Positions 2,424 to 22,720 of a stretch of DNA of 24,596 nucleotides are shown here, in pieces (within the stretch, counting starts at the first letter, position 1; every line of letters starts with the position of its first letter). The translations under genes were made by a program, and so were the position numbers. Under the pieces are notes generated by a model, which ran no database searches, was not told the DNA's origin, and was given only the letters and a program-made list of their open reading frames with translations. This DNA comes from a virus. Location of the stretch: the IMG/VR virus record IMGVR_UViG_3300032163_000101, positions 1 to 24,596 of that record; one strand, written 5' to 3'.

Positions 2424-2689
2424 ATAGTGTTGATATAACATTGGGCGAAATCTGTGCCATTACAGCAACGAATAGACAAGTATTGGTTGATGGGATAAAT
2501 GCCCGAATGGGTGGGTGGATTGATGCCCACCCCGAAGCGTCATATCTCTATGTATCATTATCTGGTGAGAAATTGGGATGCCCAGGTTGCTCGGCGGATT
2601 ATAAAACCGAGGTGGATGTCCCCGCACATTCAATTCCCTGCTCTTGTGGTAATCCTAAGCATTGGTTGATTAAGTACGAGGAAGAATAA
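2417..2689 (+). CDS. small zinc-ribbon-like protein between terminase and portal
   Basis: This is a 90-residue protein of unknown function. Its C-terminal half has a likely zinc-binding arrangement: C55-x2-C58 and C75-x-C77, with H71 and H82 nearby. The N-terminal half has no feature I recognise. The gene starts inside the end of the large terminase gene (GGAGG at 2410-2414 lies in the terminase coding sequence) and its stop overlaps the portal start in TAATG, so it is translationally coupled on both sides. A structural or assembly cofactor role is possible but not shown. It is one of three small Cys-rich proteins embedded in this late region. Confidence 0.75.
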   Translation: MVNSVDITLGEICAITATNRQVLVDGINARMGGWIDAHPEASYLYVSLSGEKLGCPGCSADYKTEVDVPAHSIPCSCGNPKHWLIKYEEE

Positions 2690-4518
2690 TGAAAAACGGT
2701 AAAGTTACCCCCGAAGAAATAAAAGACGAATTGATACCCAAGTGCAAAGAAGTCTATAACGACCTTTGGGATAAGGGATTTAAGCTGGATGAGAAATATT
2801 ATGAATTAGACTTTGGGGATAAACTAGACCTTCCCACCGAGTTTGCCGCAGAGGGCATTGTCCTGCCAACTGCCCGCGACATGGTGGATACCTTTGTTGA
2901 CCATATTGATATTTCAAATGCTCGTGTGTTCGTGAATCGTAAGGGAACGTCTACCGCATCTGCCGAAGACGCAGAGATGATGCGGAAGTTTTATCTTGGT
3001 TTGATTAACCGAACTAATGTGGAATCTGATATTTCACCGTGGAGGGTGGCGGCTAAACATTTTGCCATGCACGGTCTTGCAGTTTTCAAAACCGTTTGGG
3101 ATGCCGATAGATGGATTGATAAGCCCGAACAGGCAAAGAGTGAAAGCGAAACCGATTATGCTAACAGAATTGAGGAGTGGCAATCACAAACCCATCAATC
3201 TATTCCAATAATTATTCAGGCGATAAATCCCAATTGCATTATGCCCGACCCGTCTTATGGCGGGAGACAGTTTGTTATTGAAGAACAATCGAGACTTTGT
3301 TTCGATGCCTCTAAGAGATGGCCGCATTGGTCAAATCCAGAAAGTAAAAAGTTAGACCAACAAGTAACTTATATTTCTTATTGGGATGATACATACCGAT
3401 GCGACATGATAGACGGCGAACCGATACTTAAAGTCAAAGGTGGGGTTGTCCAGCACAAATATGGATTCATCCCCTACACTTTGATTGATTCTGGATTGGG
3501 CAATATGTCAGCCGATGGCGACCCCCAAAAGCGGTATGTTGGGATTCTGAGATATATGTTTGACCTCTTGGTGGCGGAATCGAGGGACTTCTCTATTTCT
3601 GATATTGTTCTTAAAAAAGCAGGATTCCCTTATCTGGTCATATCGGGCAAGAACTCCGCATTGGTTACCGAGATAAGCCAGAAATACGGTGTGGCGAATA
3701 GATTACCCGAAGGCGTGACAGTTGAGGAAATCGTTTCTAAGGTCCCCCCCGAAGCATTGGCACAACATCTTTATCGAACATCAGATTATATTTCAGCTCA
3801 CGCTGCACCACGTTCTGTGCGGGGGTTATCGGAAACGGGTGTAAGGTCGGGTGCTGATAGACGGTTGGTGTTATCTGAGGCCGCTGCTCGTTATCAATAC
3901 AGTACGGAGGCGTTTAAGAACGGCACGGCAAAGGTTTTAACCAATTGTGCCCGTCTAATGAAAAATGTTGTCCCTGGCGATATTAGGGTCTGGGCAAAAA
4001 CCCCCACTGATAACTTTGATGTCGAGATTAAAAAAGACAAAATGAAAGAGCCCTTCACCTGCTATGTGGAGTTTGCCCCGATTTCAGAAGAGGACGAATA
4101 TCGCAGGCATGATGACCTAGAGAGGTTATCTGCGAGTGGGATTGTTACCCCTCAATGGGCAAGAAGCCAGATGTCAAATGTTGACCCATTAGCAATGGAA
4201 ATTGAGGTTGAAAAAGAGAAATTAAAGAATGACCCGAATATTCAATCTGTTGTTGCACAGTATGTCGGGGGCAGGTTGGCACAGGCGATTTCACAAAGAA
4301 GCGCGGCAGAAGGATTGACTGCTGGTCTACCCCCGATACCTGCACCCCAACAGGGTGGAATACCCCAACAAGGTGGTGTGCCTCGCCAGATGGCTCCACC
4401 CATTACCGAGCGACCACCGATAGGTTCTGCCGAAAAATTGCAGACTGAACTGGCATCATTAAGAAGCAATAAACCAATGAAGCCCCAACAGGGAATCGGA
4501 GGGGGTAGTAACAGATGA
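2689..4518 (+). CDS. portal protein
   Basis: This 609-residue protein follows the terminase, the usual position of the portal, the ring at the special capsid vertex through which DNA is pumped. The length fits. Portal-like features include the early helical segment with LPTARDMVDTFVDHI, a long mixed alpha/beta core, and a helical 'crown/stem-like' segment around residues 378-420 (GLSETGVRSGADRRLVLSEA). A flexible C-terminal tail rich in Pro, Gln and Gly (about 545-580, two PQQGG units) follows, as seen in many portals. No catalytic motif is expected. The call is based on size, order and overall character, not on a signature motif. Confidence 0.8.
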   Translation: MKNGKVTPEEIKDELIPKCKEVYNDLWDKGFKLDEKYYELDFGDKLDLPTEFAAEGIVLPTARDMVDTFVDHIDISNARVFVNRKGTSTASAEDAEMMRKFYLGLINRTNVESDISPWRVAAKHFAMHGLAVFKTVWDADRWIDKPEQAKSESETDYANRIEEWQSQTHQSIPIIIQAINPNCIMPDPSYGGRQFVIEEQSRLCFDASKRWPHWSNPESKKLDQQVTYISYWDDTYRCDMIDGEPILKVKGGVVQHKYGFIPYTLIDSGLGNMSADGDPQKRYVGILRYMFDLLVAESRDFSISDIVLKKAGFPYLVISGKNSALVTEISQKYGVANRLPEGVTVEEIVSKVPPEALAQHLYRTSDYISAHAAPRSVRGLSETGVRSGADRRLVLSEAAARYQYSTEAFKNGTAKVLTNCARLMKNVVPGDIRVWAKTPTDNFDVEIKKDKMKEPFTCYVEFAPISEEDEYRRHDDLERLSASGIVTPQWARSQMSNVDPLAMEIEVEKEKLKNDPNIQSVVAQYVGGRLAQAISQRSAAEGLTAGLPPIPAPQQGGIPQQGGVPRQMAPPITERPPIGSAEKLQTELASLRSNKPMKPQQGIGGGSNR

Positions 4519-4522
4519 TTTG

Positions 4523-4723
4523 TTATTTGGGGGGGAATAAATCGCTACCCTTTATGGACGGGAAGGTTTCAACCCACCAACGAATAGCATAGAAGGCAAT
4601 TTGCATTTCTCGTTTTGATACCTCGGTACAATTCATTTTATCGAGGTATCTTTTGAGGTCGCGATATCGAAAATCGCCCTCGGTGGTTATAAAATGTTGT
4701 CCTAATCCAGATGAAATAACCAT
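4523..4723 (-). CDS. reverse-strand moron gene, unknown 66-residue protein
   Basis: This is the only convincing reverse-strand gene in the window. It fills the 250-base space between portal (ending 4518) and the next + gene (4769). The 66-residue product is mixed charge with a Trp pair (FYAIRWWVETF, about residues 44-54). It has no signal peptide, membrane span or family I recognise. Its start codon begins at the predicted first transcribed base of a consensus promoter, so the mRNA would be leaderless. A lone, oppositely oriented gene with its own promoter inside a late operon is the layout of phage 'morons', which often alter host physiology or exclude other phages. That role is inference. 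No terminator follows, so transcripts could run antisense into portal. Confidence 0.72.
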   Translation of the reverse strand: MVISSGLGQHFITTEGDFRYRDLKRYLDKMNCTEVSKREMQIAFYAIRWWVETFPSIKGSDLFPPK

Positions 4724-4729
4724 ACTGTA

Positions 4730-4758
4730 ATTATATAAAATAATTATGTTTTTGTCAA
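4730..4758 (-). promoter_or_regulatory. perfect-consensus sigma-70 promoter driving the reverse-strand gene
   Basis: On the reverse strand, TTGACA (4758-4753) is followed by exactly 17 bases and then TATAAT (4735-4730). Both hexamers and the spacer match the bacterial housekeeping consensus exactly. Six bases after TATAAT comes A4723, the first base of the ATG, so the expected start of transcription is the start codon itself. The + strand of the same stretch carries the ribosome binding site (AGAGGT 4758-4763) of the gene starting at 4769. Confidence 0.9.
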
Positions 4759-4768
4759 GAGGTAACAG

Positions 4769-5035
4769 ATGAAACCAACAACTTTAACCAGAATCACAGA
4801 AGAAGTTATTGACCTAAAATTAAAAGCCGCCGATGAATTTATTGCAGATGTTATCGAACCCTTAGAGAAAATCGGAAGTCCCGAGGCATTGATTGGCAAA
4901 AAGTATGAGGAATGGACTCCTCTGGATTTTCAACTTTTAGGACAAGTTTATGGTATGGGAAATGAAAGTCCGTTGGGTAAGTTAATATTCAAGAAGTCGC
5001 TTGAGGAAGTTCAGCGACTTGAGAGCGAGGTGTAG
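4769..5035 (+). CDS. unknown small protein after portal
   Basis: This 88-residue, mostly helical and acidic protein has a repeated pattern of charged residues and no Cys, signal peptide or membrane segment. An AGAGGT ribosome binding site precedes the ATG. It ends 2 bases before the next gene, so the two are probably co-translated. I do not recognise the family. Its place between portal and large virion genes suggests an assembly or minor structural role, but the sequence itself does not show this. Confidence 0.7.
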   Translation: MKPTTLTRITEEVIDLKLKAADEFIADVIEPLEKIGSPEALIGKKYEEWTPLDFQLLGQVYGMGNESPLGKLIFKKSLEEVQRLESEV

Positions 5036-15626: not shown

Positions 15627-15914
15627 ATGAATGCATTTGAGTATTTGAAATCATTTGAGTTTCTTCCACAGAGAGGTACAAATTTAATAAATAGAAGACC
15701 ATCAAACAGCGAAATTAGAAGATGGCTACAAAATAAATCCATAATCATAAATGGCGAAAAGCCGCCTCCAGAAGATGAAATTGAATTTCCTGTTACTAGT
15801 TTAATATTTTTCCCGGCCTCGAGACCAATAACTATGATATTAGAAGAAGACTGGGAAGGAGCTAAACATTATTATGGCGAAAAGGAGAAAAGTGAACCCA
15901 GAAGAAGAACTTAA
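15627..15914 (+). CDS. small protein with an S4-like RNA-binding pattern (tentative)
   Basis: The preferred product is 95 residues, MNAFEYLKSFEFLPQRG onward. The ATG at 15627 has CAGGA 5 bases upstream; an earlier ATG at 15606 overlaps the fibre stop but has no good site. The segment SNSEIRRWLQNKSIIINGEKP (about 26-46) resembles the S4 RNA-binding core (SxxxxRxxIxxGxVxVNG). The C-terminal tail is charged. The gene overlaps the next one by 41 bases. An S4 domain would suggest RNA or ribosome contact, but the resemblance is short and the call tentative. Confidence 0.58.
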   Translation: MNAFEYLKSFEFLPQRGTNLINRRPSNSEIRRWLQNKSIIINGEKPPPEDEIEFPVTSLIFFPASRPITMILEEDWEGAKHYYGEKEKSEPRRRT

Positions 15915-22550: not shown

Positions 22551-22574
22551 AACAAGTCAGTGTATTGACACACA

Positions 22575-22630
22575 ACTCCAGAAATGGAGTATACGCTCAA
22601 TAAAACAAACCGTCCCCATGGACGGCTTTT
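22575..22630 (+). terminator. two stacked hairpins, the second a rho-independent terminator
   Basis: ACTCCA (22575-22580) and TGGAGT (22585-22590) form a 6-bp stem with a GAAA tetraloop. Then CCGTCC (22610-22615) and GGACGG (22620-22625) form a 6-bp stem with a CCAT loop, followed by CTTTTG. The second is a typical terminator; the first may aid stability. Both lie between the two membrane-protein genes. Confidence 0.65.
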
Positions 22631-22645
22631 GCTTTAGGCAACAAT

Positions 22646-22687
22646 CTGAGCAGAAATGATGTTCAGTCGTAAACAAAAAGTGCTCAG
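22646..22687 (+). repeat. short inverted repeat upstream of the second membrane gene
   Basis: CTGAGCA (22646-22652) and TGCTCAG (22681-22687) form a perfect 7-bp inverted repeat with a 28-base spacer, 34 bases before the GTG start at 22721. It could be an operator or a weak long-loop hairpin. A repeat of this length can occur by chance. Confidence 0.3.
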
Positions 22688-22720
22688 TTGAAATATAAAA
22701 AATAAACAAGGAGGAAAAAC

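Follow-up and report, generated by a model that had tools for sequence, protein, structure and literature searches.

The classic definition of a phage moron includes a transcription terminator of its own. In the broader current usage, any gene insertion confined to a limited set of genomes counts as a moron, and a terminator is not required (PMC6316719). In the lytic phage SPP1, morons bracketed by transcription signals lie within the late genes, most of them encoding fewer than 100 amino acids (aa) (PMC6316719); morons thus also occur in virulent phages. STMMW_20121 of ST64B has its own promoter and lies antisense to lytic genes, a placement that has been called characteristic of moron loci (PMC7067206). 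Among TA-led leaderless bacterial genes, the -10 box is found about 10 to 12 bp before the start codon (PMC3160421).

Here we describe a 243-bp insertion in a viral contig of 24,596 nucleotides (nt) (IMG/VR record IMGVR_UViG_3300032163_000101), analyzed over its whole length and called the window below. With a probability of about 0.72, the insertion is a moron, consisting of a promoter and one open reading frame (ORF) and inserted backwards into a tailed-phage late operon, at the junction of portal with the gene that comes next. The features of the locus are as follows.

2689..4518, plus strand: portal-position gene, 609 aa, called "portal" from its position (no PHROG or Pfam match)
4508..4518, plus strand: left copy of the 11-bp direct repeat GTAACAGATGA, containing the portal stop
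4519..4761, no strand assigned: 243-bp insertion, unique to the window contig and absent from L002, L003, and L004
4523..4723, minus strand: 66-aa predicted leaderless ORF with a coding signal and no recognized family
4617..4650, no strand assigned: inverted repeat within the ORF (plus-strand hairpin of -16.3 kcal/mol, then TTTT)
4730..4735, minus strand: -10 element TATAAT (17-nt spacer; ATG 6 nt downstream)
4753..4758, minus strand: -35 element TTGACA, found by sequence scan
4762..4772, plus strand: right copy of GTAACAGATGA, containing the next gene's start codon
4769..5035, plus strand: 88-aa gene, found next after portal in most relatives, with a Shine-Dalgarno (SD) sequence, GAGG (4759-4762), that comes partly from the insert end

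The insert has in common with classic phage morons an extra gene between genes that are adjacent in relatives, its own sigma-70 promoter, and a deviating GC content. It differs from them in its opposite orientation, in being leaderless, in its flanking 11-bp junction duplication, and in having no terminator: as the sequence-only reading had stated, the minus strand from 4523 to 3000 contains no terminator-like site, so that antisense read-through into portal is possible. We file the insert as a moron under the broader usage. It shares with STMMW_20121 the own promoter and the antisense placement, although expression of STMMW_20121 was measured in a lysogen (PMC7067206), whereas that of the insert is predicted. 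As a moron, it is a clean, ordinary one of an already known type.

IMG/VR was searched first with the portal-position gene and next with its aligned relatives, which yielded 67 related loci; no portal relatives were found in the genome contigs collection, and no isolate phage carries the window's portal. In the three closest relatives (L002, L003, and L004), one of which (L002) has 95% protein identity, portal runs directly into the next gene through an ATGA overlap, and no DNA separates the two. The DNA alignment of the window with L002 stops at 4518 and restarts at 4761. This comparison had been proposed with the initial description of the promoter-ORF unit, whose span (4523-4758) is nearly all of the insertion, and it shows that the 243 bp are missing from all three relatives. 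The GTAACAGATGA repeat is exact at both insert edges (none of 2,000 shuffles of the right boundary matched) and is single-copy in L002 and L004, while L003 has one mismatch. Because of the duplicated junction, portal kept its stop, and the 88-aa gene kept its start and gained an SD sequence, the final bases of the insert completing the GAGG ribosome-binding site. The locus thereby shows an accessory gene entering a tightly overlapping virion operon with both neighbors intact, the junction duplication restoring stop, start, and ribosome-binding site. The ORF occupies 201 of the 243 bp, and promoter and ORF together leave only 3 to 4 nt at each end. GC content is 37% in the insert and 41% in the ORF, compared with 45% in the window. 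No meaningful DNA relatives of the insert were found in the relatives' loci or in the rest of the window. A DDE transposon or MITE-like element was considered and rejected, as no terminal inverted repeats were found in the insert.

On the minus strand, direct reading and a scan both give TTGACA (4758-4753), 17 nt, TATAAT (4735-4730), the 6 nt TACAGT, and ATG at 4723. This promoter (4758..4730) agrees with the sigma-70 consensus at 12 of 12 positions and is the single perfect TTGACA-N15..19-TATAAT match in the window, for which shuffles of the window average 0.03. Most of the window's other genes have a purine-rich SD sequence before the start; the 66-aa ORF has none, and its -10 element is placed for a transcription start at the ATG; a leaderless mRNA is thus predicted. 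Both the perfect promoter and the leaderless geometry proposed by the sequence-only reading (a 6-nt gap from TATAAT to ATG) held when re-read and re-scanned. In a sample of IMG/VR with at least 106 perfect promoters, scanned for an ATG within 30 nt downstream, the ATGs that open ORFs of at least 45 codons peak 6 to 8 nt past TATAAT (15 cases among the 106 promoters listed). Because this peak includes clamp-loader-like, primase-like, and polymerase-like genes, as judged by translation among the same 106 promoters, the geometry is really used; since such spacing is common among phage promoters, the arrangement here is unremarkable. Like the TA-led leaderless bacterial genes, the 66-aa ORF has no SD and a TATAAT that puts position +1 on the A of the ATG (PMC3160421), whereas nearly all other genes of the present phage are SD led.

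Perfect sigma-70 promoters are overrepresented in this phage group, with 5 in 471 kb (window plus relatives) against about 0.6 expected at the rate from the window shuffles. The other four are on the plus strand, near locus starts and upstream of packaging genes, and for this reason consensus promoters look like real signals in the group. They are located at L034:176, L037:126, L043:145, and L047:28; in L047 an ATG (62 aa) follows TATAAT by 7 nt, which is the leaderless geometry again. A search for a T7-type RNA polymerase in the relatives gave no match, and its control likewise matched nowhere.

The minus-strand 66-codon frame looks coding. An ATG-started ORF of at least 66 aa appears in 33 of 5,000 dinucleotide shuffles of the insert (0.7%), and the codon score of the ORF is 0.07, at the low end of the window's known genes (0.07 to 0.20), while scores of -0.16 to -0.41 were obtained for the remaining five frames. 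There is no sign of selection on the frame, since a second copy of the gene was found nowhere in the viral, genome, phage, and plasmid collections searched at the sensitivity used. The product had been described as unrecognized, and family and structure searches agree: it has no match in PHROGs, Pfam, PADLOC, or NCBIfam and none at a meaningful E value among solved structures. A single-sequence AF2 model (pLDDT 76, pTM 0.63) predicts a beta-hairpin and two helices and scores only moderately higher than the one antisense control ORF that was modeled (pLDDT 67, pTM 0.40); fold searches with it gave no E value below 0.35. Origin as a portal-derived fragment was hinted at by tblastn (best E value, 0.084) and by a rank of 1 in 10,001 with the portal profile. 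This origin was discarded, as shuffled proteins matched the same loci equally well in 29 of 300 cases, and the likeness of residues 2-35 to profile positions 266-299 does not rise above these shuffles. Rfam matches were also set aside, every one lying far below the gathering score.

The portal/next-gene junction is an insertion site in this phage group. Among the 58 relatives that have the downstream side of portal, in about 12 another addition separates portal from the conserved small gene, in every case in plus-strand orientation. Such additions include Pfam-confirmed HNH_3 endonucleases in four relatives (L021, L048, L052, and L055) and small ORFs without an assigned family in L010, L028, L056, and L061. 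The free-standing HNH endonuclease genes occupy the same junction as the insert but are forward-strand genes, and the insert has no recognizable nuclease. The L010 addition (L010:4205-4400) is about 170 nt long, contains a 42-aa forward ORF, and is bordered on each side by 8 bp of the motif duplicated in the window (TAACAGAT); five other junction inserts tested for a flanking repeat have none. A 77-aa ORF after portal in L009 (4733-4966) resembles, by eye, the window ORF at 15627-15914, which starts MNAFEYLKSFEFLPQ, and this likeness suggests that small genes may move between junctions in the group. The junction in these uncultured phages is a place to seek more accessory genes.

Three other explanations were weighed. 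Accessory DNA at the portal junction is highly variable, and the insert, known from one contig only and with lower GC and no homologue, could be recently captured, non-functional DNA with a chance promoter and ORF that is being lost. The joint occurrence of a perfect promoter, leaderless spacing to the base, and a frame that looks coding is improbable, however, and the unit fits the insert ends tightly, so that we hold this explanation to be improbable. Somewhat less so, though still unlikely, is a regulatory element in which an antisense RNA into portal, a hairpin damping late transcription past portal, or both would be the functional part and the ORF incidental. The absence of a minus-strand terminator between 4523 and 3000 and the stable plus-strand hairpin followed by TTTT agree with this, but the hairpin is trailed by only four T's, and most of the insert is given to an ORF with coding-like codon use whose first base coincides exactly with the predicted start of transcription.

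That the insert is known from a single contig could also point to an artefact of metagenomic assembly or strain mixing. This is very improbable: the breakpoints are clean and lie at a biologically sensible junction, the independent contig L010 has a similar insertion with its own duplication, and an 11-bp repeat is short for joining by an assembler.

The moron reading, an inserted and separately transcribed gene, is well supported by the empty site, the direct repeat, the own promoter, and the lower GC. What stands of the initial moron interpretation is an autonomous inserted gene with its own promoter; lysogenic expression and a host-directed function do not. Among the longer relative contigs, a tyrosine integrase was matched in only 1 of 16, which is distant, and the other 15 have no such match, though these contigs may be fragments; nothing supports a temperate life for the window's phage. 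Likewise, a host-directed function finds no support in the 66-aa product, which has neither a homologue nor a fold match.

Most likely, the insert is a recently acquired accessory gene that host RNA polymerase transcribes first, with late transcription opposing it afterwards. Separate transcription from the minus-strand promoter, and also its timing, we infer from sequence, with early reading by the host polymerase suggested by the placement of the insert. On insertion, the 11-bp junction sequence would have been duplicated, with the portal stop and the next-gene start both retained. Once the phage DNA enters the cell, host RNA polymerase with the primary sigma factor would read the promoter, and the mRNA would begin at or beside the A of the ATG and be translated without a leader. 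Late-operon transcription over the same DNA would later oppose the minus-strand unit by collision and antisense RNA. Because of this presumed early reading and later opposition, the 66-aa protein may be a small early accessory factor, acting in host takeover, anti-defense, or superinfection exclusion, and not a component of the virion, an assignment that we make tentatively and at somewhat less than even odds; the protein is a small, testable candidate. A more speculative extension, which we consider improbable, takes the 243-bp unit as a minimal mobile cassette, in which a self-contained leaderless gene would insert at the gene junctions of phages and duplicate the junction sequence. A possible route would be repair of a break cut by HNH endonucleases, whose genes lie at this junction in relatives; small autonomous genes would accumulate there as a result.

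The inverted repeat at 4617-4650 is possibly a weak sense-strand terminator or an operator. Its sequence, GATACCTCG, has further exact plus-strand copies at 1842 and 16736 and, with up to one mismatch, 9 matches against 3.4 expected, a weak excess; it is possibly an operator or due to chance. Elsewhere in the window, an intergenic gap of about 170 nt (22551-22720) holds a bidirectional terminator-like hairpin (CCGTCC CCAT GGACGG) with T-rich tails on both strands, and the stretch from 22557 to 22709 is the window's sole other slot for a reverse ORF without a forward gene.
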